Source: Mucilaginibacter sp. KACC 22063 (GTDB taxonomy: Bacteria; Bacteroidota; Bacteroidia; Sphingobacteriales; Sphingobacteriaceae). From it: a DNA stretch of 64,000 bases. The stretch covers positions 2,170,001 to 2,234,000 of the forward strand of contig NZ_CP117877.1 in the NCBI RefSeq assembly GCF_028736115.1, read 5' to 3'. Shown here one piece after another: positions 6,551 to 38,446 of the stretch. The position numbers and the translations under genes were made by a program. The notes below the pieces were generated by a model, which saw only the letters and a program-made list of their open reading frames with translations, was not told the origin of the DNA and did not search any database. Within the stretch, counting starts at the first letter, position 1, and the number at the start of each line of letters is the position of its first letter.

Positions 6551-8623
6551 ATGAAAAGACTTTATGCATTTATCATTGGGTGTCTTTTAAGTATTTGCAC
6601 CCTGCATGCGCAATCATGGACGGCAGATAATGGCAACGGTACTTATACCAATCCACTTTTTTACGATGAGTTTTCTGATCCGGATATGATCCGCGTAGGT
6701 AATGATTTTTACCTGACAGGCACCACTATGCACAGTGTACCAGGTTTGCCCATATTACATTCTAAAGATTTAGTGAACTGGAAATTGATCGGTTACGCAC
6801 TTCAACGTTTCAAACTCGGTGATGAATTCGATCTTAAAAACGGGAAGGAAGCCTATGGACAGGGTATATGGGCACCTTGTATACGTTATCATAACGGCAC
6901 TTTTTATATTTTTTCAAACATCAACCATCATGGTTTACAGGTTTTTACGGCTACAAATCCAGCGGGACCATGGACGCAGCACAATCTGGGCCGCCATATT
7001 TATGATCTGTCTGCCCTGTTTGAGAATGGTAAGATCTACATCGTTTACGGAGTAGACGAGATAAAGATGATCGAATTAAAATCCGATCTGAGCGGCTTTG
7101 TTCCGAATACCGACAGAGTACTTATTCCAAGAGGTAACGCTATGGGAGAGGGAAATCATTTTTACAAGATCAACGGCAAGTATTACATCACCAATGCAGA
7201 TAACGGCCGCTTACAGTGCGCGCGGTCATCAAGTATATACGGCCCTTACGAAACTACAGTAATAAGCGCTAAGGAAACGATGGGGACTACGCTTGGCTGG
7301 TTTACAAAGAATGCTTCGTTAGTTACGCCCTTGCCTTCGTCAACTGATAGCCTTATGATCTTTAAACAAAACAGTCAGTTGTTGGGCTCTGTACCTATGC
7401 ACCAGGGAGGTATCGTTGATCTTCCAAATGGCGATTGGTGGGGCTTTTCTATGATGGACTTTCGTTCTGTGGGACGAACTACCTTTTTGTCGCCAGTGAC
7501 CTGGAAAGATGGCTGGCCGTTTTTTGGCATTGAAGGTAATCTTGGGCGCTCGCCACATACGTGGTTTAAACCTAAAGTTGACTCAGGTGAACTGCCACAT
7601 GCGCCATATCAGCGTAATGACGACTTTACTTCAGCTAAGCTGGCCTCTGCATGGCAATGGAACCACAACCCGGTTAACAATGAATGGCAATCTGGGGCAG
7701 GTGTACTTAAATTACACACCATGCCTGCAAAAGATTTTTTATGGGCAAAAAATACGCTTACGCAAAGATGTATCGGCCCGGAATCTTACGCCACTGTAGA
7801 ACTGAACGGCAAAAACATGCATGACGGTGATATCGCAGGTTTGGGATTAATGGACATCCCTTATGCATGGGTAGGCATATTGCGAAAAGGCAGTCACTAT
7901 ATTTTAAGGATGTTTGATCAATACAAACATCAAACAATTGATAAGCCGCTTAATGCACCGCAAATTTATCTGCGTGCTTTTGGGAATTTTGATGAGGATA
8001 TTGCCCAACTCAGTTTCAGCACAGACGGCAAGACATTTGAAAGTGTTGGCGATAGTATACGCCTGCCTTACCAGTTAAAAACTTTTCAGGGCACAAGGTA
8101 TGCGCTGTTTGCTTACAATACTAAAAGTAAAGAAGGCGGCTATGCCAGCTTTAGTCATTTTGTAATAAAAGAGCCATTAGCCGACCGGTCAAAAAATATT
8201 CCGATTGGTAAAATTATTACACTCGCTAATCTGGCTAACAACACAATGGTATGGGCCAATCCGCACGGTGTGTTATGTCCCGGGCAGGTATCTGGATCTT
8301 TCAAAAATGATTCGGCTTATGCCTTTAAGGTACTTGATCGTGGAAACGGTAAAGTGGCGTTACAGGCTATCAATGGAACCGGCTTTGTTACCATTACCGG
8401 CCAGGGCTTATCGGCAGATGTACGCCTTTTGAAAGAAGAATCGGCTGCAAGTCTGTTCATTTGGCAAGATATGCTAAGAGGGCGATGTATGCTTTTATCA
8501 ATGAAAACTAACCGCTATGTAGGGCTTGATCCTCGAACCGGAGAATTGTATTCGGCTGACTGGCCGGGTACATTACCAGGCATGAAAGACGGCACCGTTT
8601 TTAGCTGGCAGCAAATCAACTAA
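6551..8623 (+). CDS. GH43 family glycosidase with extra C-terminal module (secreted)
   Basis: Second GH43, 690 residues, related to the enzyme just upstream but with a longer tail. Signal peptide is residues 1-21 (ends LHAQS). Predicted catalytic residues are D43 (EFSDPDMIRVG, base), D152 (IYDLSALFENG, modulator) and E200 (GEGNHFYKING, acid). A GH43 C-terminal beta-sandwich covers about 355-540. The last 140 residues (about 550-690, with GKVALQAINGTGFVTITGQG and NRYVGLDPRTGELYS) look like a beta-trefoil/fascin-like carbohydrate-binding module. This last assignment rests on the repeated 'valued residue + G-x-Y/F-V' pattern and is less sure. Tight spacing on both sides puts it in an operon with the other GH43 and the GH97. 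Confidence 0.9.
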   Translation: MKRLYAFIIGCLLSICTLHAQSWTADNGNGTYTNPLFYDEFSDPDMIRVGNDFYLTGTTMHSVPGLPILHSKDLVNWKLIGYALQRFKLGDEFDLKNGKEAYGQGIWAPCIRYHNGTFYIFSNINHHGLQVFTATNPAGPWTQHNLGRHIYDLSALFENGKIYIVYGVDEIKMIELKSDLSGFVPNTDRVLIPRGNAMGEGNHFYKINGKYYITNADNGRLQCARSSSIYGPYETTVISAKETMGTTLGWFTKNASLVTPLPSSTDSLMIFKQNSQLLGSVPMHQGGIVDLPNGDWWGFSMMDFRSVGRTTFLSPVTWKDGWPFFGIEGNLGRSPHTWFKPKVDSGELPHAPYQRNDDFTSAKLASAWQWNHNPVNNEWQSGAGVLKLHTMPAKDFLWAKNTLTQRCIGPESYATVELNGKNMHDGDIAGLGLMDIPYAWVGILRKGSHYILRMFDQYKHQTIDKPLNAPQIYLRAFGNFDEDIAQLSFSTDGKTFESVGDSIRLPYQLKTFQGTRYALFAYNTKSKEGGYASFSHFVIKEPLADRSKNIPIGKIITLANLANNTMVWANPHGVLCPGQVSGSFKNDSAYAFKVLDRGNGKVALQAINGTGFVTITGQGLSADVRLLKEESAASLFIWQDMLRGRCMLLSMKTNRYVGLDPRTGELYSADWPGTLPGMKDGTVFSWQQIN

Positions 8624-8652
8624 ATCGAAAACTTTAATTAACATACCTGATT

Positions 8653-10602
8653 ATGAAAGTATTGATAAAATCAAAATTCATTATTTCGCTATGCACACTA
8701 AGTATGCTTTTTCACATAAGCGTATCTGCACAAGACAAACAACCCTATAAGCTTACTTCACCCAACGGAAATATCAAAGTAATTATCGAAGATCATTACA
8801 AGAAGGGAAATGATTCTGTAGCATCGGCTCATTTCAGCATCTACTATAAATCTCAAGGGAAATATACACCGGTTATTTCTGATAACGAGTTAGGTATTTC
8901 AACGGATAAAGAACAATTCAAGAACATTAACTTAAAAGGTGCCGGAGTAATCAAAGCTATATCGGCTAATTATAAAATGATTACCGGCAAACGCCGGTTG
9001 TGTAGTAATGCGGCTAATGAAAGTACACTCAGTTTTGTTAATGCAAATGGTAAGCAACTCAATATTGTATTTCGTGTTTATAATGATGGCATTGCATTCA
9101 GGTATCAGATGCCAAAATGGTCTGAACAACCAATTAACGTTAGGGACGAATACACGGCCTATCATATTCCTGAAAAAACTGACAGGTGGATGCAGACTTA
9201 TGATCCGGGATATGAGGGTTTCTATCCATACAGCACAACTGGTAAAGGAGACAAGAGCCAGCAATGGGCTTACCCTGCTCTTTTCAAGGTTGTTAATCAA
9301 CCTGTTTGGTACTTAATATCAGAAGCCAATAACAGCGAATTTAATTGCGCCGCCAGGCTTACTAATAACAATGACTTTAATACTTACAAGGTTACCTATC
9401 CCGAACCTCGCAAAAATTTCCAGCAACAAGGTGACTTATCGTCACTTCCGTGGTCTTCACAATGGCACACGCTGATTGTAGGTTCGCTGGCTACCATCGT
9501 ACAGTCTACCTTAATTACTGATGTTAGTGAGCCTAATAAATTAAGTAATACAGATTGGATTGAGCCGGGAGCTGTTTCCTGGATTTATTGGGCTAACAAT
9601 CATGGCTCAAAAGATTACAAGAAAGTTATTGAATATGTAGATCTGGCAAAAAACATGGGCTGGCCTTATGTATTGATAGACTGGGAATGGGATGTTATGA
9701 GTAACGGCGGCAATGTTGAGGATGCCGTTAAGTACGCAAAATCAAAAGGCATAAAGCCTATGCTTTGGTACAATTCCGGAACCACTGATTGGTCTGATGC
9801 TACACCGTTTGATAGGTTGCGCACAGAAGAAAAAAGGATAAAAGAGTTTCAATGGCTTAATAAAATAGGCGTATATGGCATCAAGGTTGACTTTTTTGCA
9901 GGCGATCAGCAAGATATGATGAAACTTTACCTGGATATTTTGAAAGATGCTGCTCAATACCATTTGATGGTTGATTTCCATGGTGCTACTATTCCGCGTG
10001 GTTGGGCCAGAACATATCCTAATTTAATGACAGTTGAAGCGGTGTATGGTGCCGAGTGGTATAACAATAACTCTGTAATGACCAACAAAGCCGCAGTTCA
10101 TAATACAACGTTACCATTTACCCGTAACGTTGTCGGCTCAATGGATTATACACCTGTTACGTTTTCAAATAGTCAGCATCCGCATATTACTTCTTATGGG
10201 CACGAACTGGCATTGTCTGTTGTATTTGAATCGGGTTTGCAAAACTTTGCTGACCGTCCAGAGGCTTTTTATAATTTGCCAGATGCCCCACGCAACTTTC
10301 TTAAAACGGTTCCGGTTGCCTGGGATGAAACCAGGCTTCTAAGCGGTTATCCGGGAGACCATGTCGTAATAGCAAGAAGACAGGGTAGCAAATGGTACAT
10401 CGGTGGTTTAAATGGGCAAAATAATGCTAAGACGTTACAGTTTAAGCTGGATTTTGTAAAACAAAAGCATGCAAAAATGAGCGTTATAAAAGATGGTGAC
10501 AATGATAAATCATTCAAAACAGCCGCTGTGCAAGTTTTTAAAGATCAAGATATTAAGGTAGATTGTCTGCCGCGTGGAGGCTTTGTTGCCGTTATAGAAT
10601 AA
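8653..10602 (+). CDS. GH97 family glycosidase, probably retaining (alpha-galactosidase-like)
   Basis: Periplasmic exo-glycosidase of family GH97, 649 residues with a signal peptide ending VSAQ (about residue 26), an N-terminal beta-sandwich (about 30-290), a TIM barrel and a small C-terminal beta domain. GH97 has two mechanistic groups: inverting SusB-type alpha-glucosidases and retaining alpha-galactosidase types. Here KVDFFAGD supplies Asp413 and YGAEW supplies Glu468, with the same 55-residue spacing I recall for the nucleophile and acid/base pair of the retaining Bacteroides enzyme. This points to an alpha-galactosidase or beta-L-arabinopyranosidase activity, which would suit a pectin or arabinogalactan side chain. 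The family is clear and the substrate is inference. Confidence 0.9.
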   Translation: MKVLIKSKFIISLCTLSMLFHISVSAQDKQPYKLTSPNGNIKVIIEDHYKKGNDSVASAHFSIYYKSQGKYTPVISDNELGISTDKEQFKNINLKGAGVIKAISANYKMITGKRRLCSNAANESTLSFVNANGKQLNIVFRVYNDGIAFRYQMPKWSEQPINVRDEYTAYHIPEKTDRWMQTYDPGYEGFYPYSTTGKGDKSQQWAYPALFKVVNQPVWYLISEANNSEFNCAARLTNNNDFNTYKVTYPEPRKNFQQQGDLSSLPWSSQWHTLIVGSLATIVQSTLITDVSEPNKLSNTDWIEPGAVSWIYWANNHGSKDYKKVIEYVDLAKNMGWPYVLIDWEWDVMSNGGNVEDAVKYAKSKGIKPMLWYNSGTTDWSDATPFDRLRTEEKRIKEFQWLNKIGVYGIKVDFFAGDQQDMMKLYLDILKDAAQYHLMVDFHGATIPRGWARTYPNLMTVEAVYGAEWYNNNSVMTNKAAVHNTTLPFTRNVVGSMDYTPVTFSNSQHPHITSYGHELALSVVFESGLQNFADRPEAFYNLPDAPRNFLKTVPVAWDETRLLSGYPGDHVVIARRQGSKWYIGGLNGQNNAKTLQFKLDFVKQKHAKMSVIKDGDNDKSFKTAAVQVFKDQDIKVDCLPRGGFVAVIE

Positions 10603-10795
10603 GTTGTTTTATTACGGTTTACAATATTGTATCGAGGTGATTATCATTAAAGGCTTACTTAATTGTTTGGCCGTCCAAAAAACTTTTATGGTTTTATATA
10701 GACGTTGGGAGCAATGAGTTCGGCAAGCTGCATTTCAGTAAACTACAACGAAATGACGCCTGGATGAAGATGTGCGGCGGGAACTTCGATCTTCA

Positions 10796-10829
10796 GGTTA
10801 CCGCATCTTAATGCGGTAACCTATTTTTA
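10796..10829 (+). terminator. Rho-independent terminator between GH97 and the PfkB kinase
   Basis: Perfect 11-bp stem GGTTACCGCAT / ATGCGGTAACC with loop CTTA, followed by TATTTTTAA on the + strand. It lies about 190 bp after the GH97 stop and 40 bp before the end of the convergent kinase gene. The T-tract is only on the + side, so it mainly ends the GH97 transcript. Confidence 0.75.
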
Positions 10830-10866
10830 AACCTTTCAAAATATAAGATCAGAAAATAAAGGCAAC

Positions 10867-28386: not shown

Positions 28387-30579
28387 TTATTGACCAAGTT
28401 CTAATTGATTCTTTACCAATTCATAATATTTACCCCGGTACGAAGTAAGTTCATGGTGAGTCCCAATTTCATCGATCTCACCATTATTTAATACAATAAT
28501 CTGATCAGCATTTCTTACTGTACTTAGTCTGTGTGCAATTACAACTACAGTTTTATCAATAAAAAACTTTTCTAAGTTATTCATGATCGCCTTTTCGTTG
28601 TTAGCATCCAAAGCATTAGTAGCCTCATCCAGGAAAATGAAATGAGGGTCGCGGTAGACGGCCCTGGCTATCAAAAGCCGTTGTTTCTGGCCGCCACTTA
28701 AGCTTACTCCTACAGTTCCAAGAAGTGTGTTATACTTTTGAGGTAATGTTTCCACAAAATCCCATAGGCATGCCGTTTCTAAAGCAAACTTCACTCTTTT
28801 CTTATCAATGTCTTTCTCCTGCATAGCAACGTTTTGCGCAATAGACGTATTGTATATAAATCCATCCTGCATTACAACACCGCAGTTTTTGTGGTAATCA
28901 TCAGTATCTATCAAGCTTAGGTCTTGATTGTCAACGACAATATTGCCTTGCTGGGGTTCGTAAAATGCAAGCAGTAATTTAAGTAACGTGGTTTTACCGC
29001 TTCCACTTGCCCCTACAATTGCTGTAATTTTACCCTTGGGTATAAACAAGTCTATATTTTTTAAAATATATCGGTTATGAACTCCGGGGTATTTGAAGGA
29101 AAGGTTTTTTACATTTAATCCTAATCTGAACTCCTTGGGAAAAGATTGCGGCTTGGAGATGTTTTCATCTTTTTTTAATTGAACTTCATTTAGGCGTTCA
29201 AACGAAATTTTTGCGTCCTGATAATCACGGAAAAATCCCATAATTTCTTGAACAGGACTGGCAAGCTGACCAACAATATAACTGATGCTTAACATCACAC
29301 CAAAACTGATTGAACCGGAAATAACCCAGTATGAACAAAAAAAAGTTACCAGCAGCATTTTAATCTGATTGATGATACTAATGCCGTTTTGTTGCAGATT
29401 GTTAAGTTTTAAGCTGGCTAACTTGAAGGTATACAGCTTATTCTGCAACTCCGACCATTTTTCCACTTTATCCTCCTGAGCAGTATTAAGCTTAATTTCT
29501 GTCATGCCTGATATTAAATCATGCAGATAGTGGCGTTCCTCTATTGCCAACCCAAACCTGCGATAGTCCAGGTTTTTACGTTTTTTCATAAACATGAAAA
29601 ACCAGAGGAAAGAGATTGCTGTGGCTGATACAAACAGGATGATCATACCGCGGTTTAGCCACAATAATTGAATCGTATAACAGACAACCAATACACTGGA
29701 AAATATAAAGGATACTAATCTTGTTGACAGAAAGGATTCGATTTTTGAATGGTCATCTATCCGTTGATAAAGATCTGCATGGTTTTTAGTATCAAAAAAT
29801 GAAATAGGTAGACGTAATAGCTTTTTTAAAAAAGACGATATAATACTAACGCTTAGCTTTGTACTTAACTTTGTTTGAATTAAATTTCGAAGATAATTTG
29901 AAAGTGTAAGGCTGCCAAACAACATGAATTGTAAAAGAAGGATTTGCCAAACAATATTCAGGTTTTTCCCGGCTAACCCTTTATCGGTCATATATTGAAT
30001 GGTTTTGGGAATAACTAATGAAATTAAGCTGGAGGCACAAATAAAAAGTGTAAGTAACCCTATTGACCTGGCATAGGGTTTTAAATATGACATCATTTGT
30101 ACCAGCGTAGAGTTGGTTGCCGTTTGATCGACTACATTTGCTGTTGCTGTATCTGGTGTTGCCCGGTCAAAAAAAACAGCAATACCCTTCTCGTGCCCAT
30201 GTAACCATCCCTCCAGAAATTCTGTTTCTTTGAGCGTTATAATACCATGTCCGGGATCTCCTATAATGTATCGATCCTTATAAATACGATACAAAACGAT
30301 GTAGTGATTTTTGCGCCAATGTAAAATACATGGGAAAGGATGATGGCTTTTTAAGTAGCTGAGAGTTGTTTTAAAGGCTAATCCCTTCAAGCCGGTTTTT
30401 TCAGCAGCATGAATGATATCTCCAATACTTGTACCCAAACGGGAAGTATTACAAAGTTCACGCAAACTACTTATAGATACATGTATATCATAGAAAGCAG
30501 CAATCATTTTTAAGCATGCGGGGCCACAATCCATTGAGTCCAGCTGCTTCTGAAAAGGTAATCTTTTACGTATTAACAT
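28387..30579 (-). CDS. C39 peptidase-containing ABC exporter (PCAT) of the RiPP locus
   Basis: Inner-membrane transporter that cleaves a double-glycine leader and exports the core peptide. The N-terminal peptidase (about residues 1-135) has Cys18 (SMDCGPACLKM), His92 (WRKNHYIVLY) and Asp108 (IIGDPGHG), the full C39 triad. Six hydrophobic segments follow (about 165-440), then an ATPase domain with Walker A GASGSGKTT (about 517), LSGGQKQRLLIARA (about 626) and FLDEATNALD. 730 residues is normal for the family. It is the last gene of the RiPP operon and overlaps the preceding gene by 7 bp. The matching substrates are the two LYKAIFGG-leader peptides at 34550 and 37408. Confidence 0.95.
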   Translation of the reverse strand: MLIRKRLPFQKQLDSMDCGPACLKMIAAFYDIHVSISSLRELCNTSRLGTSIGDIIHAAEKTGLKGLAFKTTLSYLKSHHPFPCILHWRKNHYIVLYRIYKDRYIIGDPGHGIITLKETEFLEGWLHGHEKGIAVFFDRATPDTATANVVDQTATNSTLVQMMSYLKPYARSIGLLTLFICASSLISLVIPKTIQYMTDKGLAGKNLNIVWQILLLQFMLFGSLTLSNYLRNLIQTKLSTKLSVSIISSFLKKLLRLPISFFDTKNHADLYQRIDDHSKIESFLSTRLVSFIFSSVLVVCYTIQLLWLNRGMIILFVSATAISFLWFFMFMKKRKNLDYRRFGLAIEERHYLHDLISGMTEIKLNTAQEDKVEKWSELQNKLYTFKLASLKLNNLQQNGISIINQIKMLLVTFFCSYWVISGSISFGVMLSISYIVGQLASPVQEIMGFFRDYQDAKISFERLNEVQLKKDENISKPQSFPKEFRLGLNVKNLSFKYPGVHNRYILKNIDLFIPKGKITAIVGASGSGKTTLLKLLLAFYEPQQGNIVVDNQDLSLIDTDDYHKNCGVVMQDGFIYNTSIAQNVAMQEKDIDKKRVKFALETACLWDFVETLPQKYNTLLGTVGVSLSGGQKQRLLIARAVYRDPHFIFLDEATNALDANNEKAIMNNLEKFFIDKTVVVIAHRLSTVRNADQIIVLNNGEIDEIGTHHELTSYRGKYYELVKNQLELGQ

Positions 30580-31451
30580 GTAAAAGAGCCAAAGTAAACC
30601 ATGTTAATGTCCAGTGTTGAATTACCTAAAGTAGAGCCGTCATGAAAACAATTGTCTGTAGGGGCAATATAAAATTCATAGGGCTTTTGAATTACTTTAA
30701 ATACCGGATAGTCAGGAAAAGCTTTAAAAAAAAGCGGAGCAATGTTGTAAATCGTAATGTTTTCATCAGCAGGTGTAAGCTTACGCTTTAACATGGTGTA
30801 GGCCTGTAGTAAGGTTAGGTTGATGAAATAAAAAATACGAGACTGTTTCCCTAAGTTTATCGTCATCCGGTTGCCCCGTTTATGCATGGTGTGAATTTTC
30901 ATTGATTTAGTCCCATCATTGTGGAGGCCGACGTATTTTCTTTCTGGTATGGTAAAGCCGGGGTGTAGTTTACTTACGTCACATGCAACCAGTTCTAAGT
31001 TTGGCAAATTAGCCGCAATGCAATTAAAATTAAATGGCAAACCCTGTGATAGCGGATCAAGAAATTGTTGCATAGCTTCACTAATGCCTTTAACTACTGT
31101 TGAGTTCGACTTAATTCTGTCCATAACTGCTTCCCTGCTGGTCAAATCAGTTATTTTCAGCTGCTCAAAAAGTTCCTTTAATTGGGGGCTAATATCTCCT
31201 ATAGTAATTGTGTTATGACAACGCTTGCTGTTTCCTGCCAGTAAGTTGCTTTCTTTGGTTGAAAGGCTTCTCCAATCATGTTTAGGAACATAAGCATTGT
31301 CGTGGAAAAGCGGTACAAAGTCCCAATCCGAAAATTGTACCCGCTGTAAATTATGGTTCCGATAATGCGTTGTTCCCGAATTAATATAAACGCTGCCCCA
31401 ACCCTCAGGAAGTAGATTGTTGAGCACTATTCCCTTTTTTACTTCCATCAT
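30573..31451 (-). CDS. Unrecognised RiPP-locus protein, paralogue 3 (candidate H-x-D...H metalloenzyme)
   Basis: I do not recognise this family. It is the third of three tandem paralogues. The ATG at 31451 overlaps the TAA of the previous gene by one base (TAATG), which argues for this start over an in-frame ATG at 31475. Conserved blocks are KYVGLHNDGTKSMKIHT, GNRMTINLGK, NLTLLQAYTML and APTDNCFHDGSTLGN. From this start the conserved His-x-Asp is H177/D179 and the distal His is H270, the same spacing as in the neighbours. This is the residue pattern of a 2-His-1-carboxylate iron site as in 2-oxoglutarate oxygenases, but no conserved Arg follows the distal His, so the cofactor is uncertain. 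Predicted soluble; role likely in peptide modification. Confidence 0.75.
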   Translation of the reverse strand: MMEVKKGIVLNNLLPEGWGSVYINSGTTHYRNHNLQRVQFSDWDFVPLFHDNAYVPKHDWRSLSTKESNLLAGNSKRCHNTITIGDISPQLKELFEQLKITDLTSREAVMDRIKSNSTVVKGISEAMQQFLDPLSQGLPFNFNCIAANLPNLELVACDVSKLHPGFTIPERKYVGLHNDGTKSMKIHTMHKRGNRMTINLGKQSRIFYFINLTLLQAYTMLKRKLTPADENITIYNIAPLFFKAFPDYPVFKVIQKPYEFYIAPTDNCFHDGSTLGNSTLDINMVYFGSFTC

Positions 31452-32344
31452 TATTGTAGTGTTAATTTTTTGCAAAAACCTCCAAAAAATATCATCGTCA
31501 TATCAAAAGTCTTATTACCAAGTGTCCGCCCATCGTGAAAGCAATTATCAGTAGGTGCTATATAATACTGATAAGGTTTAAGTTTTACTTTTAGAATAGG
31601 GTAGTTGGGAAAAAGCTTAAAAAATATCTGTGGTATTGTGACCAGGTTCACATCGGGTAGAGATTCTGGATTTTTAGCTTTGATCATATTGTACGCTTGA
31701 ATAAGCGAGAGATTTACAAATAAAAATTCCCGTTCTTCGCGTCCGAAGTTTATTGAAATACGATTCCCATATCGATGTGCAGTATGTATAGACATGGCTG
31801 TCGTACAATCATTATGAAAACCTATGTATTGTACATCTGTTGGGGCATGGTTTTTAGGTAAATGATAAAACTTTGCAGAGACTGATAATAAATTAGGAAA
31901 GCTAACCCCAAAGCAGCGGAATTTGTAGGGCTTATTGTCTGCAATTGTATTTAAGAAAATATTCAGATCATTATTTAACTTTTTTGCGAGTACCTCATGC
32001 TTCCGGAAGATTGCGTAAATATCGTCTACAGTTTCCGATTCATGTAAAGGCAGCTTTTTGAATCTTTTTATCAGAGAATCAGGAAGATCACCAAGAAATA
32101 TGGTGTTATAATCAGTTATCTTATTGCCAGGTTTTAAAATATGCAAGTCTTTATCTGAGAGCGAACACCAATCTGATTTAGCGAGTATGGCACCTTCTTG
32201 AAACTGCGGGGTAAATTTAATTTTCCGAAAGCTCACTTCCGGTATATTTTCCTGTGCTGCATAGCAAATTCCTGAATTGATCATAATTGCATCCTGCTGT
32301 TGTTTCAGTGAATTAATTAGGCCAATTCCTTTTCTGAGTATCAT
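31451..32344 (-). CDS. Unrecognised RiPP-locus protein, paralogue 2 (candidate H-x-D...H metalloenzyme)
   Basis: Second of three tandem paralogues, 297 residues, no signal peptide. Shared blocks are YIGFHNDCTTAMSIHTAH (H177, D179), RYGNRISINFGRE, NLSLIQAYNMI and YYIAPTDNCFHDGRTLGN (H270). The N-terminal 10 residues (MILRKGIGLI) resemble those of paralogue 1, and the middle KHE(V/I)(L/V)xKxL(N/A)xDL segment is also shared, so paralogues 1 and 2 look closer to each other than to 3. It starts 12 bp after paralogue 1 ends. Function not known; three copies in one RiPP operon suggest three separate sites or steps, or a hetero-oligomer. Confidence 0.75.
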   Translation of the reverse strand: MILRKGIGLINSLKQQQDAIMINSGICYAAQENIPEVSFRKIKFTPQFQEGAILAKSDWCSLSDKDLHILKPGNKITDYNTIFLGDLPDSLIKRFKKLPLHESETVDDIYAIFRKHEVLAKKLNNDLNIFLNTIADNKPYKFRCFGVSFPNLLSVSAKFYHLPKNHAPTDVQYIGFHNDCTTAMSIHTAHRYGNRISINFGREEREFLFVNLSLIQAYNMIKAKNPESLPDVNLVTIPQIFFKLFPNYPILKVKLKPYQYYIAPTDNCFHDGRTLGNKTFDMTMIFFGGFCKKLTLQ

Positions 32345-32356
32345 AATTTCCTTCAG

Positions 32357-33184
32357 TTATATTTTATCGAAATTTCCGGTATAGACCAAAGTAATATCCA
32401 CAGAACTCATACCCACAGTGGTGGCATCATGAAAGAAATTATCTGTTGGTGCTATATAATATTGGTATGGTTTAATTTCAATTTTTACTACCGGATAATC
32501 TGGGTGATGTTGAAAGAATAAGCTGGCAATATTATATGGCGTTATCAATGTTTCGCAACTGACCTTTTTTTTGATCATATTATAAGCTTGAATTAACGAT
32601 AGATTTACGGTAGCCAGGTACCTGCTCTCTTTACCCAAATTAATAGATATGCGATTCCCGGATTGATAGGCAGTATGTAACTTATATAAGCGGCTTCGGT
32701 CTACATGTAAACCGATGTATGTAAATTTCTCATTCTTATAAAAGCAGGTAATGGTGTCGCGATTGGGCATCGCTCTGGTTATCCGGTGAAATTTGTATTG
32801 CCTGTTAGTAGAAAACTGCTTGAAAAAATTATCCAGGTCATCAGCCAGATGCTTTACAATTTCTTCATGTTTACGAACAGTTGGGTAAACATCATCAGGG
32901 TTAATACACTCATGTAATTTCATTTTACGAAATGTATTTTCAATTACGTCAGGTACCTTCCCGATTCTGATAGTGTTGCTTAATTTCTGTTTATCAGGTT
33001 GGTCAAATAATGCTGTTTTTGTCTTGTCGTTTAGCGGTTGCCAATCGCGTTTAGGGATAAACGAACCTGGTGTATAAAACAGATTGATATCATCAACCGC
33101 CGGATTTGTGCCTGTATTAATAGTTAGCTGATCTGCAAAATCAGGCAGATCGCTTTTAATAACGATTCCACGTTTGAGTATCAT
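32357..33184 (-). CDS. Unrecognised RiPP-locus protein, paralogue 1 (candidate H-x-D...H metalloenzyme)
   Basis: First of three tandem paralogues, 275 residues, the shortest. It overlaps the radical SAM gene by 4 bp (ATGA), so the two are translationally coupled. Shared blocks are FTYIGLHVDRSRLYKLHT (H160, D162), QSGNRISINLGKESR, NLSLIQAYNMI and YYIAPTDNFFHDATTVG (H252). The residue between His and Asp is Val here but Asn in the other two, and the Cys of DNCFHDG is Phe. Like its neighbours it lacks membrane segments. An iron-dependent oxygenase role is an inference from the metal-ligand-like pattern and from the context only. Confidence 0.75.
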   Translation of the reverse strand: MILKRGIVIKSDLPDFADQLTINTGTNPAVDDINLFYTPGSFIPKRDWQPLNDKTKTALFDQPDKQKLSNTIRIGKVPDVIENTFRKMKLHECINPDDVYPTVRKHEEIVKHLADDLDNFFKQFSTNRQYKFHRITRAMPNRDTITCFYKNEKFTYIGLHVDRSRLYKLHTAYQSGNRISINLGKESRYLATVNLSLIQAYNMIKKKVSCETLITPYNIASLFFQHHPDYPVVKIEIKPYQYYIAPTDNFFHDATTVGMSSVDITLVYTGNFDKI

Positions 33185-34443
33185 AAGTCAATAAGCTGAT
33201 TAAAAGATGTAAGCTGATTTTTAACTTCCTGGTCTATCCGTATTTCAGGAGATTTTTTGAGGCCGGCAACAATATCATCATAGCTGTGTGTTTCAATATT
33301 TAGGTCTTTTATTGTTTGGGCAGGTAGGCTTGAAATAAAATCATCTCTCAGATGAGTGACTAATCGTATGATATCTTTGCAATAAATGGTAGGGTTGTCA
33401 AACCCATTATGATTAGCAAAACGATTACCTAAAAAACCCCCGCCGCAGATATCCAGCATCGGACAATTCAAGCATTGCTCTGCTACCAGATCGTGTGAAT
33501 TATAATAGATTTTAAATATATCTTCAGTAAAAAGGTCATCAATTTCGTTATGATGCACATTGTACCCGTTTCGGGTAATCCCTTCATAGCAGGCTCTAAG
33601 AGAATCAGTCACTTCAATACCTCCATCTGTTTCAATAACGACCACCCCGTTTTTCGTTCGGCCAAACCCCTGATTACCCCGGTTAGCATTTCCGGCAAGC
33701 ATTTCGATTAAGGTTTCAAATAGCCGTATTACAGGACGGTTAACATCTGCTTTCCATAAATTAAAAAGGCTTATAAGCCAGTCGGCATAAGGGGTATAGT
33801 AATCGTATCCAAATTGTTCGGCGCTAAATCCATCAGGCAACCGATCGTAATGGCCATCCGGAAATAAAAGATTAAGTCTTCTGACTTCCAGTTCTTTTAG
33901 CTCTTTATAGAATTCATTAACCGGTATTTTAGGATTGATGACCATTAGTATACCTCCAAGTTCATTCTCCTTACCTAATTGAATGGCTTTGGATACTTCA
34001 TCATAAGAGCCTTTGCCGTTATGAAAGAGTCGGAACTCGTCATGATATGGTTTAGGTCCGTCCAAACTGATCCCAATTCTGATACCAGCCTTGTTTAAAA
34101 AATTATACCAGTCCAGATCTAATGTAACACCGTTTGTTTGCATAGAAAACATAAGTTCAATTTCTTTGCAGGTTTCCCTGAGGATGTGGATAAACTCACT
34201 GTAATATTCTTTGCTTAATAACAAAGGTTCGCCACCATGAAAGATAATATGTATGAACTTGGTATCACTACGTTTACAGTACGAATACAGGCGTTGGGCT
34301 AAGGCTGTAATCGTATCTATTGACATAAATTTAGGTTGCTTCAGATAAGTCTGATCGCCCAGATTATACATATAGCAGTAAGAACAGTTGAGGTTACAGC
34401 GGCTAGCTACCTTGATCACATAAGATGTAACTTGATCGGTCAT
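33181..34443 (-). CDS. Radical SAM/SPASM peptide maturase (FxsB/three-residue cyclophane-type)
   Basis: Predicted iron-sulfur enzyme that crosslinks residues in a ribosomal peptide. From the ATG at 34443 (a GTG two codons upstream is the alternative) it has 420 residues. The SAM cluster motif is C16-x3-C20-x2-C23 (SRCNLNCSYCYMYN), followed by IIFHGGEPLLL and GISLDGP. The C-terminal SPASM-like region carries C324, C327, C333 and C355 in QCLNCPMLDICGGGFLGNR and its continuation. The VIKVASRCN opening and HGGEPLL loop are those of the FxsB/GrrM-like group whose characterised members form three-residue cyclophanes. Targets would be the two precursor peptides. The gene is separated from precursor 1 by a hairpin, which probably lowers its expression. 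Confidence 0.88.
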   Translation of the reverse strand: MTDQVTSYVIKVASRCNLNCSYCYMYNLGDQTYLKQPKFMSIDTITALAQRLYSYCKRSDTKFIHIIFHGGEPLLLSKEYYSEFIHILRETCKEIELMFSMQTNGVTLDLDWYNFLNKAGIRIGISLDGPKPYHDEFRLFHNGKGSYDEVSKAIQLGKENELGGILMVINPKIPVNEFYKELKELEVRRLNLLFPDGHYDRLPDGFSAEQFGYDYYTPYADWLISLFNLWKADVNRPVIRLFETLIEMLAGNANRGNQGFGRTKNGVVVIETDGGIEVTDSLRACYEGITRNGYNVHHNEIDDLFTEDIFKIYYNSHDLVAEQCLNCPMLDICGGGFLGNRFANHNGFDNPTIYCKDIIRLVTHLRDDFISSLPAQTIKDLNIETHSYDDIVAGLKKSPEIRIDQEVKNQLTSFNQLIDL

Positions 34444-34500
34444 ATCCACTATGTTTAGGTTTAAAAATCAAAATGTAAATACAAGAGTAGTTTTTAAATT

Positions 34501-34545
34501 ACAACAAGCTTGGCCTGTACACTTATGCACAGGCCAAACTGTTGT
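34501..34545 (-). terminator. Hairpin (attenuator/terminator) after precursor peptide 1
   Basis: Inverted repeat with an 8-9 bp inner stem (TTGGCCTGT / ACAGGCCAA) and an outer ACAAC / GTTGT stem, starting five bases after the precursor stop on the - strand and followed by TAATTT. It separates the short, probably abundant precursor message from the radical SAM gene; partial read-through is the usual arrangement in RiPP operons. Confidence 0.7.
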
Positions 34546-34549
34546 TTAA

Positions 34550-34753
34550 TCAAGCTCTTAAGAACTGATCGGTTTTGTCATAAGCTGATGCACGCTCTTC
34601 TGAATCAACTATTGCCACTAATGGACAATCAGAACCGGTACCGCCGAATATCGCTTTGTACAAGTCCATTTGTTCATTCTCAGAAGACTGAACAGCATTT
34701 TGCAGGATGCTTTTTCCTTTAGCATCGCTAACCAAGGTTTGATTTTTCTTCAT
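34550..34753 (-). CDS. RiPP precursor peptide 1 with double-glycine leader
   Basis: 67-residue peptide, predicted precursor. The start at 34753 is chosen because the second copy begins with the same MKKNQTL; an in-frame start at 34810 would add 19 unrelated residues. The leader (residues 1-38) ends LYKAIFGG, a C39-type cleavage site. The 29-residue core starts TGSDCPLVAIVDS and ends YDKTDQFLRA. Core features conserved in both copies are one Cys (residue 43) and two aromatic-x-x triplets, Y58-D-K60 and F64-L-R66, which are the kind of sites used by three-residue cyclophane enzymes. Peptide status follows from the leader, size, duplication and neighbours; the modified residues are inference. 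Confidence 0.85.
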   Translation of the reverse strand: MKKNQTLVSDAKGKSILQNAVQSSENEQMDLYKAIFGGTGSDCPLVAIVDSEERASAYDKTDQFLRA

Positions 34754-34880
34754 AACAGATAAGAAATTGATGAATAAATAGCCATCAGTAAGGACATGGC
34801 AACTGCCCATAACTTTAAATATTATTCAGATATGAACCTTCTTATTGATCGATCTCTTGTCGGCCATAGAAAGGTGATCT

Positions 34881-37289
34881 TTACATTAATCTGCCTTTTA
34901 CATCCTGTGATCCTGTGTCACGGTCTCGTTTGTCCTTTACGGTTTGTTTACCAAAATTGTAGCTGATAGCCAGTGCTATACTTCGGGTATCATTGTAGTA
35001 ATTATCCTTTACGCGTAAGGCACCAAGCATATAGTTGTACCGGTCTTTATTGCTTTTAAACCAGTCCTGAGCCGACAGCGTGACACCGAAATTACCGGCC
35101 GTTTTCCTTAAACGAATCTCTGTATCCAGCCGGTTACCAATACGCGTGTTTACTATTGTGGCCGGAAAAGAGTTGGTTATTACCAACGTACTACTAAGTC
35201 CTGCTTTTTTGGATATTGTAAAGGTTTGATTAGTAGCTATTGTAATGGCCAATGTTTGGTTATCAATTGTAATATCGTTAGCATAAGCGCCTTTAGTCAC
35301 TACATACCCCACAAGCAACGTTCCTGATAAGCGCCACCAGGGTTTAGGCTGATTATTGTAGCTTGCTGTGAGGGACTGTCCGTAACGGTTACCATAATTA
35401 GTTTTTTGGTTGATAATAGTGTCCCCTGAAGTATAAGGAAGCGCATAAATTTCTCCAATTGTTTGACTGGCTGCTATCTGTAGGGTAAGTGTTCCCCACT
35501 TCTCATTCAGGCTGTGACTGAGTTCTTCACGATAATATTTAACAGGCTGCAATAAGGGATTTCCGGTAAAATAAGCTTTGTCTGTTGTATAGGTACGAAA
35601 CGGGTTTAAGTCCCAATAACCAGGCCGGGTGATACGGCTTGTTACAGCAAGCACGTAAGCACCTTTTTCTTTAGTTGTGAGCTTTAAAAAGGCTGTAGGA
35701 AAAAGATTAGTATAGTTTCGGGAGACTACCTGGTTGTCTTCGAGCCAGCCTTTGGCTGCTGTATTTTCTAACCTTAAACCTAACTGATAAGACCAAACAG
35801 GGCTTAACTTATAGCTAAAGTTGCCATACAAAGCATTAATATTTTCTTCATACCTAAATCGGTTACTCTGTCCGGGATCTGTTAACCAGATGTTGTTATC
35901 TGACAAGTTTTCGAACAAAAAGGTATTTCTAATTTTAGAAAATGATGCTTTGCCCCCAAAGGATAGATAGCCTTTTTTATTACTGAGCGGCCAGTCGAGA
36001 TCAGCTTTAATTGATTGGTTATTAATATGCTGTGGTGAAGATGTGCGAAAGATAGCCAAGTCGTTTGTTGCTTGCTGTGTCAGTGGGTCTATGGCGGTGT
36101 TAGTACTATTGGAATTATTTCCGGAGCGATAAGCTAACGCATCATAATCAACGCTTAATGTTTTTCCGGCTGAATCCAGTTTGCCCTGATAATTTAAATT
36201 CAGTGAGTATGTTTGTGAGTTAATCCGATCTTTGTTGACTGTCTTTGTTAAAGAATCTGTAGCCGGATAAAGGTCCATTGTTGAGGCATTGCGCGTTTCT
36301 CTGTGCGTAATGCCAGAAAAATCAAACAACATACCCACTACATGATTCTTGTTAAGCTGATAATCGGCACCCACATTAGCTCCGGGATACAATTCTGTAT
36401 ATTTGTTTACCGAGTTAATGTTTCTCTGACTGATTCCATATATAGAACCACCAGGATAAAATATGTCACGATTAGTAGTGGGCTTGCGACTACGATTGCC
36501 CATATACATTGTCGAATAGATGTTCCACTTTCCTGACCGCTCATTTAAATAGAGACTACCAGCCTGGGAGTTGACTGCGGTTTGGCGTGTACTTAACGAC
36601 GCACTACCAATCAATCCTTCCTCCTTATTTTTTTTAGTGACAATATTTATAATTCCCGCTCCGCCTTCAGCTTCGTACTGGCTGGGAGGGGTAGTAATTA
36701 CTTCAATAGCATCCAAATTATCTGATGGTAAACCACTCAGATAAGATTTAAGAGCGGTACCAGATAGTACTTTCTTTTTGTTATTAATATAAACTATAGC
36801 TCCGGTAGTGCCACTAATAGCAAGGGATCCATCTTCTGAAGCCTGTACTAAAGGTGTTTTTTCAAGCACATCCCAAACATTATTCCCTTTTGTTAAGTCT
36901 GTTTGACCAACATTGAACCGAAAACGGTCTAGTTCCCGTTGAAATACCGGCCTTTGCGCCCTGATAGTTACTTCAGACAGCATTTGCGTAGATTTAAGTT
37001 GCAAATTGATCGCTGTATCCCTGCGCAACACAAATTTGATTACAGTATCACGATAAGCTACAAACCTAACCCGCATCGTATAAGATCCGGGTTTCAAATT
37101 CACTATATTGTAGCTGCCCAAGCTATCTGTTATAGCTCCCGAACCTTTAGCACCGGTTTGCTGTAAGATAATTACCGCTAAAGGGAGTGGTTTATCTTTA
37201 TGGTCTGTAATTGTACCATTTAACTTTAGTTGTGCATAAGAATTGATTCCGGCAAGGACAAGGATGATAGATATTATAAACTTAGTCAT
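34881..37289 (-). CDS. TonB-dependent receptor/outer-membrane beta-barrel protein in the RiPP locus
   Basis: 802-residue outer-membrane barrel of the CarboxypepD-regulatory plus plug plus barrel type (outer-membrane beta-barrel family 3-like), without a SusD partner. Signal peptide 1-19 (ends GINSYAQ), a regulatory-like domain about 20-105 (LKLNGTITDHKDKPLPLAVI), a plug with IEVITTPPSQYEAEGGAGII, and a long barrel. It lies between the two precursor genes, 118 bp after precursor 2 and 127 bp before precursor 1. It could let the mature peptide cross the outer membrane, re-import a peptide-bound ligand, or act in self-protection. Position supports a link to the peptide; direction of transport cannot be read from sequence. 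Confidence 0.88.
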   Translation of the reverse strand: MTKFIISIILVLAGINSYAQLKLNGTITDHKDKPLPLAVIILQQTGAKGSGAITDSLGSYNIVNLKPGSYTMRVRFVAYRDTVIKFVLRRDTAINLQLKSTQMLSEVTIRAQRPVFQRELDRFRFNVGQTDLTKGNNVWDVLEKTPLVQASEDGSLAISGTTGAIVYINNKKKVLSGTALKSYLSGLPSDNLDAIEVITTPPSQYEAEGGAGIINIVTKKNKEEGLIGSASLSTRQTAVNSQAGSLYLNERSGKWNIYSTMYMGNRSRKPTTNRDIFYPGGSIYGISQRNINSVNKYTELYPGANVGADYQLNKNHVVGMLFDFSGITHRETRNASTMDLYPATDSLTKTVNKDRINSQTYSLNLNYQGKLDSAGKTLSVDYDALAYRSGNNSNSTNTAIDPLTQQATNDLAIFRTSSPQHINNQSIKADLDWPLSNKKGYLSFGGKASFSKIRNTFLFENLSDNNIWLTDPGQSNRFRYEENINALYGNFSYKLSPVWSYQLGLRLENTAAKGWLEDNQVVSRNYTNLFPTAFLKLTTKEKGAYVLAVTSRITRPGYWDLNPFRTYTTDKAYFTGNPLLQPVKYYREELSHSLNEKWGTLTLQIAASQTIGEIYALPYTSGDTIINQKTNYGNRYGQSLTASYNNQPKPWWRLSGTLLVGYVVTKGAYANDITIDNQTLAITIATNQTFTISKKAGLSSTLVITNSFPATIVNTRIGNRLDTEIRLRKTAGNFGVTLSAQDWFKSNKDRYNYMLGALRVKDNYYNDTRSIALAISYNFGKQTVKDKRDRDTGSQDVKGRLM

Positions 37290-37336
37290 AGACTTCGTCT
37301 CAGCAATAAATAGATTATAAAAAAGCTTAGCTTGGA

Positions 37337-37377
37337 TAGCTTATTCGGTCAGGCTTAATACTGACCAGAATAAGCTA
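37337..37377 (-). terminator. Hairpin (attenuator/terminator) after precursor peptide 2
   Basis: A 16-bp stem (TAGCTTATTCGGTCAG / CTGACC-A-GAATAAGCTA, one bulged A) with an 8-base loop lies 30 bp after the precursor 2 stop. On the - strand a run of six T residues follows about 13 bases later. It stands between precursor 2 and the outer-membrane receptor gene, matching the hairpin after precursor 1. Confidence 0.75.
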
Positions 37378-37407
37378 TTGAAATGAATGGGTTATTTAGG
37401 CTAAGTA

Positions 37408-37617
37408 CTATGCTACGCGCAGAAATTGCTGATCTGTCTTATCATATGCAGATGCACGGTCTTCTGAGTCGGCTACTGCAACTATGGGACAATCGGAACC
37501 GGTACCGCCGAATATAGCTTTGTACAAGTCCATTTTTTCATTTTCGGAAGATTGAATAGCATTTTGCAGGATGCTTTTTCCTTTAGCGTTACTTGCGAGG
37601 GTTTGATTCTTTTTCAT
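37408..37617 (-). CDS. RiPP precursor peptide 2 with double-glycine leader
   Basis: 69-residue paralogue of precursor 1. The leader (1-38) differs at four positions (A8, N10, I21, K28) and ends in the same LYKAIFGG. The core starts TGSDCPIVAVADS, keeps the single Cys43 and the triplets Y58-D-K60 and F65-L-R67, and has one inserted Gln and a Val near the end (QQFLRVA). Conservation is high in both leader and core, so this is a recent duplication with both copies under selection, or simply recent. It is the first gene of the RiPP locus, 172 bp after the oxygenase that closes the NRPS operon. Confidence 0.85.
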   Translation of the reverse strand: MKKNQTLASNAKGKSILQNAIQSSENEKMDLYKAIFGGTGSDCPIVAVADSEDRASAYDKTDQQFLRVA

Positions 37618-37789: not shown

Positions 37790-38446
37790 TCACACGCCCT
37801 GTTCCATATCAGCTTCATCCAGCAAATAATCTTTATCGTTTGTCAGCATAATTACCACCATTTTTCGGTCGTAACCGGAATTATTTGCAACAGCGCGATG
37901 AACGGTTCCTGCCGGAAGATAAACAAGAGAAAACGGTTTAAAGCCGGATTTAATTTCTCTCATTGGCTCATGTAATTCACGCTCAATGCCAGTAATTGTA
38001 GTATATATTTCCGTCGCGGTAAGCCCCATGGCTACGCGTTTCCAGTCTTCACCTGATATTTCCGGCTCAAAATAAGAGATCGTATTTTGGGTAACTACCG
38101 GCGTTAGCGGGATGAATATGGTTGAGGTAATGCCCTTATAATCTACATGAGGGAATTGCTCTTTTGTTTCTTGCGGGTTAACGGAAATACCAATGGAAAG
38201 TAACCGTTTGGGAAGGCTATATTTACTAATTATCGAATTAATCATCGCTATCAGCTCTTTCAGTAATTCGTTTTCTTTTTTTTCAAATGGAAATGGGCCC
38301 TTCCCTTCGCAAAAATAATTGATCCAGAAAACTTTTTTCTTTTCAGCAAGCTCCCTGATATCGCCGGCATAAATGTATTCCAATTTAGTTTGTGCCAGTT
38401 GCAATAATGCTCGTTCCTGAGCATTTAATGTTCCAATTACTTTCAT
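37790..38446 (-). CDS. Putative 2-oxoglutarate/Fe(II)-dependent oxygenase of the NRPS operon
   Basis: 218-residue soluble protein. A full 2-oxoglutarate oxygenase ligand set is visible: H100-V-D102 (QFPHVDYKGITSTIF), H183 (YLPAGTVHRAVANNS) and R194 eleven residues later (GYDRKMVVIML). It starts 5 bp after the NRPS/PKS stop, so it is translated with the assembly line and probably hydroxylates an amino acid or the finished product. Overall identity to a named family is not clear to me. The three H-x-D...H proteins in the RiPP locus do not share its sequence apart from the ligand pattern. Confidence 0.75.
   Translation of the reverse strand: MKVIGTLNAQERALLQLAQTKLEYIYAGDIRELAEKKKVFWINYFCEGKGPFPFEKKENELLKELIAMINSIISKYSLPKRLLSIGISVNPQETKEQFPHVDYKGITSTIFIPLTPVVTQNTISYFEPEISGEDWKRVAMGLTATEIYTTITGIERELHEPMREIKSGFKPFSLVYLPAGTVHRAVANNSGYDRKMVVIMLTNDKDYLLDEADMEQGV

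Follow-up and report, generated by a model that had tools for sequence, protein, structure and literature searches.

A gene cluster in Mucilaginibacter sp. KACC 22063 predicted to encode a triceptide-type peptide pathway with several MicC-like oxygenases

A gene cluster that looks like a member of the triceptide kind of pathways for ribosomally synthesized and post-translationally modified peptides (RiPPs) was identified in Mucilaginibacter sp. KACC 22063. It occupies positions 28387-37617 on the minus strand of a 64,000-nt stretch of DNA (the window), and its novelty appears to lie in an ordered set of oxygenases related to MicC. From 37617 down to 28387, the cluster contains genes encoding a precursor peptide, an outer-membrane barrel protein, a second precursor, a radical S-adenosylmethionine (SAM)/SPASM enzyme, three paralogous proteins and a C39 exporter (Table 1). 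An earlier note on this DNA had described these genes as lying on one strand and overlapping or nearly so, which was confirmed, with the overlaps and near-contacts running from the radical SAM gene onward (33181/33184, 32344/32357, 31448/31451 and 30573/30579). Conservation points to 34753, 34443 and 31448 as the likely starts of the second precursor, the radical SAM enzyme and the third paralogue, respectively. A longer frame of the second precursor (from 34810) extends back across a conserved non-coding element, and the radical SAM frame 33181-34449 matches PF04055 (E = 4.3e-19). The exporter carries PF03412 (E = 6.2e-33) together with ATP-binding cassette (ABC) membrane and ATPase domains. 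The barrel protein had been called an outer-membrane receptor; its barrel is well supported (PF14905, E = 3.1e-76), whereas the match to a TonB plug is only weak (E = 0.024).

Table 1. Features of the cluster in the window (aa, amino acids; nt, nucleotides; GG, double glycine; 2OG, 2-oxoglutarate; pLDDT, predicted local distance difference test)
Feature	Position	Strand	Remarks
First precursor	37408..37617	-	69 aa; leader ...DLYKAIFGG; core TGSDCPIVAVADSEDRASAYDKTDQQFLRVA
Outer-membrane beta-barrel protein	34881..37289	-	802 aa; OMP_b-brl_3 and carboxypeptidase-regulatory-like domain; TonB-receptor-like
Conserved non-coding element GGGCAGTTGCCATGTCCTTACTGATGGC, candidate H-type RNA pseudoknot	34781..34808	-	27 nt before second precursor
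Second precursor	34550..34753	-	67 aa; core TGSDCPLVAIVDSEERASAYDKTDQFLRA
Strong hairpin, 15 pairs	34507..34540	-	between second-precursor stop and radical SAM start
Radical SAM/SPASM enzyme	33181..34443	-	420 aa; predicted three-residue cyclophane maturase
2OG/Fe(II) oxygenase (by homology), type 1	32357..33184	-	MicC match E = 7.1e-22; in type 1 clade of 31
2OG/Fe(II) oxygenase (by homology), type 3	31451..32344	-	MicC match E = 1.1e-20; in type 3 clade of 16
2OG/Fe(II) oxygenase (by homology), type 4	30573..31448	-	MicC match E = 3.7e-21; model mean pLDDT 93.1; in type 4 clade of 13
C39 peptidase-containing ABC exporter	28387..30579	-	predicted GG cleavage and export

Related clusters are found in other Bacteroidota. 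A GTDB-based contig collection was scanned with eight paralogues, giving 32 loci, all Bacteroidota by title. The final set, to which the window and L018 were added, comprises the window and L018-L048, with 89 oxygenases; L017 (the same place as L021) and the contig-end fragments L049 and L050 were dropped. A radical SAM gene lies beside the oxygenase genes in 31 of the 32 loci, and the precursor family was found in 30, with 33 peptides in total; L020 lacks both because its contig begins there. The number of oxygenase copies per locus ranges from one to four, with two to four in 31 loci. The receptor and the C39 exporter had been taken as parts of the system, but they are not constant partners: at a match of at least 40% identity, the exporter was found in 9/32 loci (window included) and the barrel gene in 14/32, with one of the 18 loci in which it was not found cut by a contig end.

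The co-occurrence across Bacteroidota that the earlier note had proposed as a check was borne out in a sample of 296 genomes, in which the paralogues, a radical SAM enzyme at least 55% identical and the precursor occur together in the same three genomes only; a chance assembly of genes was rejected on this basis. Some radical SAM match was obtained in 106 of the 296 genomes. The precursor profile matched three genomes at E <1e-26 and five others merely at E = 0.04-0.08; it was built from loci that include these three genomes, and its informative part is the absence elsewhere. Four genomes contain a radical SAM enzyme of 35-41% identity (E <1e-70) and no oxygenase. By reading, three of these four have another short peptide with GG or an aromatic motif nearby, and in two a nearby protein begins in a way that resembles a C39 exporter. 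It therefore seems that there are related systems that lack these oxygenases.

Both precursors of the window share the leader end DLYKAIFGG. The two GG-leader peptides claimed earlier are real precursors, with leader and core motif present in 30 of the 32 related loci. The core motif, Y-[DNS]-[KR]-x(0-2)-D-x(1-2)-F-L-[RKQL], is present in all 33 peptides, and the Tyr of the Y module and the Asp before F-L are invariant. Random small frames were rejected as an explanation, as all 33 peptides found via the leader also hold the core motif. A double glycine is present in 31 of the 33 (AG in L021 and GK in L027); in the window, GG precedes the core and a C39-ABC gene stands in the same operon. The distance from the Y module to the F module is variable, which would be expected of modules that each form their own ring, and the shared motif suggests two cyclophanes per peptide.

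The best NCBIfam models for the radical SAM enzyme of the window are YhhB (340.3 bits) and FxsB (319.5 bits), which were also the top two models in all eight relatives scanned of the 30 available (YhhB score 320-355 bits). Its nearest solved relative is the radical SAM domain of ChlB (E = 5.7e-58), an enzyme called a multiple cyclophane synthase in a reference title within the available part of PMC12636437. The CxxxCxxC motif and four C-terminal Cys residues are kept in 31/31 enzymes. According to the accessible part of PMC11002830, the bond reported for YhhB runs from Tyr C3 to Arg C-beta, which fits the Y-D-[KR] of the cores. The window thus combines a SPASM radical SAM enzyme closest to known cyclophane maturases with an aromatic-x-x motif conserved in the core. 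Given the YhhB/FxsB ranking and the relation to ChlB, the enzyme should act like a triceptide maturase, though outside both curated models. The earlier placement of this ribosomal-peptide pathway nearest to the radical-SAM cyclophane peptides is supported.

The three genes downstream of the radical SAM gene encode proteins that had been described as related H-x-D...H paralogues, and this holds: the second and third are 43% and 37% identical to the first, and H-x-D...H is invariant. They gave no Pfam or NCBIfam match above cut-off. The first shows a weak match to 2OG-FeII_Oxy_2 (E = 0.063, 13.9 bits versus a cut-off of 31.2), and a Pfam scan of 87 members gave weak, scattered matches. When a profile of these 87 paralogues was compared with solved proteins, it matched MicC (9vkm) at E = 1.6e-40, and the five other matches (up to E = 10) were all at E = 0.047 or worse. 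Each window paralogue matches MicC alone (E = 1.1e-20 to 7.1e-22). The profile and the fold prediction were made without L018, which is included in the trees. By homology, the three paralogues are Fe(II)/2OG oxygenases, as the earlier note had suspected. Its view of the family as an unknown one did not stand, given the solved member MicC and relatives beside GrrM/OscB enzymes. These relatives came from a plasmid search that returned five records with a relative of the third paralogue; in two of the four neighbourhoods viewed (Nostoc pTCL26-01_E and Streptomyces ADI95-16), the MicC-like gene adjoins a GrrM/OscB cyclophane maturase. Viral contigs searched with one window paralogue and with MicC yielded no relative.

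Residues H176-x-D178...H269, N198, R204 and Y260 (numbered as in the third window paralogue) are invariant in the 89 members and in five distant relatives including MicC, which makes R204 a candidate for binding 2OG. The AlphaFold2 model of the third paralogue (type 4, the only one modelled) has a mean pLDDT of 93.1. Its best Foldseek match is the 2OG dioxygenase KdoO (E = 2.1e-4, template modelling (TM) score 0.38), and three rows reach E <=0.001. VIA-align gave Z values up to 9.8 (root-mean-square deviation 3.8, 174 aligned residues), and the 50 matches listed are all 2OG oxygenases. The type 4 model is consistent with a double-stranded beta-helix oxygenase fold; these scores are modest, and the homology to MicC is the stronger evidence. 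The structure 9vkm was not among the best 50 of 1,353 Foldseek rows (library ending 2026-04-08). The HExxH pattern occurs in 1/89 family members and in 0/3 window oxygenases, and an alphaKG-HExxH (ChlB-type) identity was rejected for the window paralogues.

In a maximum-likelihood tree of the 89 sequences, four oxygenase types were distinguished: type 1 (31 rows, support 96/85), type 2 (13 rows, 97/95), type 3 (16 rows, 86/79) and type 4 (13 rows, 99/93). The second copy of the Chryseobacterium-type loci forms a separate branch (15 rows, 95/85). Types 2-4 join at support 99/98; type 3 was not a single clade in an earlier quick tree with outgroups. The types follow a fixed gene order in the operons. 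All four are present in loci of Chitinophaga, Kordia, Tenacibaculum and Aquimarina and in one Bacteroidetes metagenome-assembled genome. Type 2 is absent from the window (types 1, 3 and 4) and from two Mucilaginibacter loci, and type 4 from the loci of Flavobacterium omnivorum, Niastella and Longitalea. Because these old duplications have been retained in order, the types are suggested to have distinct jobs. The tandem arrangement and tight gene overlap would also suit paralogues that form one complex or include inactive scaffolds, in which case copies would not equal modifications. This explanation is considered improbable: no member of any type deviates from the metal triad or from R204, which argues against inactive copies, and copy number varies among loci.

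A link between one oxygenase type and one residue of the core was found for type 4. An Arg four residues before the Tyr (Y-4) is present in 12/12 loci that contain both type 4 and a precursor, and in 0/18 loci without type 4. This was the sole perfect fit in 558 position-residue tests, which covered types 2 and 4 and all 33 precursors. It hints that Arg Y-4 could be the target of the type 4 enzyme, and is treated as a lead, not as proof. A C-terminal tail of at least three residues past F-L-x accompanies type 2 in 12/12 loci; as such a tail is also present in 5/18 loci without type 2, no link is claimed there.

The cluster as a whole is read as a triceptide-type RiPP pathway in which a battery of site-specific MicC-like oxygenases acts on one core, with a probability of about 0.68. 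The genes, families, recurrence, core motif and orthologous types belong to what was observed, and the chemical steps, their order and the transport roles would be as follows. At both Y-D-[K/R] and F-L-[R/K/Q/L], the radical SAM enzyme would bond a carbon of the aromatic ring to the beta-carbon of the residue two positions further along, so that two strained cyclophanes would lie close to the C-terminus. Different residues of this core would next be oxidised by the MicC-like 2OG/Fe(II) oxygenases, hydroxylation being the likeliest reaction, with the Arg four residues before Tyr as the presumed target of type 4. A precedent for this order is provided by ChlB: the 2OG enzyme fused to it acts on a cyclophane that has already formed, hydroxylating Asp and His, according to the available part of PMC12636437. 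Where present, the C39 exporter would cleave after the double glycine and export the product, and the outer-membrane barrel might serve in its passage, uptake or immunity.

Several observations weigh against this reading. No product has been seen. The radical SAM enzyme scores below the curated cut-offs of both YhhB (NF041707, 445) and FxsB (TIGR04269, 370), and 6/33 precursors have F-L-L, in which the third residue is not a usual one for a cyclophane. The scores of the fold comparison are modest, with a TM score of about 0.38 to KdoO. Among the matches listed in the literature search, there was no paper on the 9vkm enzyme that would give the reaction and pathway of MicC; the sole 9VKM-named paper found concerns, by title, a yeast complex. 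The MicC-like genes of Methylocystis parvus and Streptomyces NBC_01454 have no annotated radical SAM gene within 8 kb. The type 4 link was found post hoc, with type labels assigned by the authors from the tree. When the comparison is confined to the 18 precursors from outside the Chryseobacterium-type loci, type 4 is matched perfectly in three further tests, of which two concern the leader. Type 4 and Arg Y-4 each change three times on the radical SAM tree, with one independent pair on well-supported branches.

Exactly one Cys is present in each of the 33 precursors, always in the core and never in the leader. One of the oxygenase types, with the universal type 1 as the likeliest, might form a thioether between this Cys and the invariant Tyr or another residue instead of hydroxylating, giving a large ring N-terminal to the cyclophanes. 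Linkage of Cys to Tyr in a RiPP is reported for a 2OG enzyme that may or may not be MicC or a relative (Xia et al. 2025, cited in the available part of PMC12636437). The presumed Nostoc core beside a MicC-like oxygenase (LNWDNSFLQWNDSWGNG) contains W-x-N motifs and no Cys, so the family need not use one, which speaks against a Cys cross-link as its common reaction. A disulfide or metal binding would be another possible use of the Cys, and the thioether is regarded as unlikely.

A metal-related role is hinted at for some MicC-like relatives. On a plasmid of Methylocystis parvus (L066, 7815-8828), the MicC-like oxygenase gene lies among TonB receptor, iron ABC transporter and nitrogenase-like genes. 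The oxygenases of the cluster might accordingly be beta-hydroxylases of Asp and basic residues, yielding a peptide metal ligand that is taken up via the barrel protein. The invariant Asp before F-L would suit such a product, as would the ChlB system, in which a different kind of 2OG enzyme beta-hydroxylates Asp/His on a preformed cyclophane (available part of PMC12636437). The barrel gene was not found in more than half of the loci (see above), however, and the Methylocystis stretch lacks an annotated radical SAM gene; a metal ligand is judged quite unlikely as the product.

The non-coding element at 34781-34808 is single in its own genome at up to three mismatches. A pseudoknot-like element of this kind precedes 16/33 precursors, the first precursor of the window not being one of them, and by a simple pattern it is present in 1/14 Chryseobacterium loci with a precursor. 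With zero mismatches, the pattern occurs in 2/296 genomes, both of which bear the cluster; the third cluster-bearing genome lacks the element. Seven other genomes match at three mismatches only, compared with four genomes for the reversed control. In the H-type pseudoknot reading, 95.8% of cells pair, versus 27-54% for slid versions. Two-sided changes are seen at 3/9 pseudoknot pairs, two of which rest on one sequence; a slide by -3 also gives three two-sided pairs, at a pairing of 53.5%. Three such pairs arose in 15 of 500 shuffles; one shuffle reached the covariation score, and none the number of such cells. Row L024 of the alignment is offset by one base and was counted unaltered. The covariation is thus supportive of the pseudoknot, not decisive. 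Folding of five element sequences showed no clear gain in stability over shuffles (z -0.2 to -1.4), and an Rfam search of the cluster gave no match at gathering score, with one sub-threshold match judged to be chance. The 65 bases after the precursor stop fold below -16 kcal/mol in 17/20 cases examined, a count made without a shuffle control, and no such fold follows the first precursor of the window. The hairpin between the second precursor and the radical SAM gene perhaps keeps the peptide message above the enzyme message.

Further observations concern individual loci. An aspartyl-protease-like gene follows the oxygenase genes in 13 loci (12 of Chryseobacterium and L018, 11088-12242), the Pfam match having been tested in L018 only. 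Where no C39 exporter was found, it is a possible alternative leader protease. L048, which is divergent, has a single oxygenase and a different core (8601-8840 and 10001-10843; probable precursor core ...CNTAGSAYADSIYVKKD...), and is perhaps close to the ancestral form. In Flavobacterium omnivorum (L017 15635-17882, equal to L021 1-1740), the C39 exporter is accompanied by a second radical SAM gene and by a further unknown gene.

A 218-aa protein with H-x-D and a later H is encoded at 37790-38446 (-), adjoining a large nonribosomal peptide synthetase-polyketide synthase (NRPS-PKS) gene. Searches of Pfam, NCBIfam, PHROGs and the PDB gave no match to it within the limits applied, and its gene has no match in any of the 31 other loci; it may serve in tailoring of the NRPS-PKS product. 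Three giant open frames extend over 38452-64000 (-), the first of which is a hybrid NRPS-PKS with condensation, adenylation, ketosynthase, acyltransferase, ketoreductase and thioesterase domains. NRPS/PKS-like frames also lie near the cluster of L026 (Kordia). The NRPS/PKS genes (37790-64000) were rejected as a constant part, as L026 alone among the 31 other loci matches the first two frames at E 1e-20. A PHROGs search with six window proteins gave weak matches only.

The earlier note had put the cluster forward as an undescribed system. The cluster is real and recurrent, but is better placed as a variant of the triceptide kind than as a separate class. No description of this locus type was found in the literature searched by titles and abstract starts, a search that leaves most subscription journals outside its coverage and so does not establish absence from print. 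The available part of PMC10352776 has no cyclophane, oxygenase or TonB content. Few 2OG oxygenases of RiPP pathways have been characterised, and their reactions are for the most part limited to hydroxylation, according to the portion of PMC12636437 available. Loci with one to four related oxygenases on a near-identical short substrate allow gene content to be matched to residues and the enzymes to be tested singly. More speculatively, and on balance we doubt it, finishing would be modular: four old oxygenase types would each read their own core residue (type 4 the Arg by the cyclophane; type 1 a Cys-Tyr thioether or Asp), the gene set would predict the decoration, and the pseudoknot RNA would set production. 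If the reading of the cluster is confirmed, the enzymes would form a set with which cyclophane peptides could be hydroxylated or cross-linked site-selectively.

Among known systems, the triceptides (XncB, OscB, MscB, YxdB, HaaB and YhhB; available part of PMC11002830) share with the cluster the same SPASM branch, an adjacent short peptide gene and aromatic-x-x core motifs. The cluster differs in scoring below the YhhB and FxsB cut-offs, in its double motif of YDK and FLR, in the invariant Cys and in the presence of two to four oxygenases in nearly all loci. ChlB with its fused alphaKG-HExxH hydroxylase also combines a cyclophane with 2OG-dependent oxidation on the same peptide, according to the accessible part of PMC12636437, whereas the oxygenases described here carry H-x-D...H and are separate proteins present as several paralogues. 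MicC, described by the depositors of 9vkm as an alpha-ketoglutarate (alphaKG)-dependent non-heme iron oxygenase, shows near full-length homology with the same metal triad and R204, but is 25-32% identical to family members and does not keep R194. The plasmid loci of Nostoc pTCL26-01_E and Streptomyces ADI95-16 likewise have a MicC-like oxygenase near a GrrM/OscB maturase; they differ in containing one oxygenase only and, in Nostoc, in a presumed core of W-x-N type that lacks Cys.

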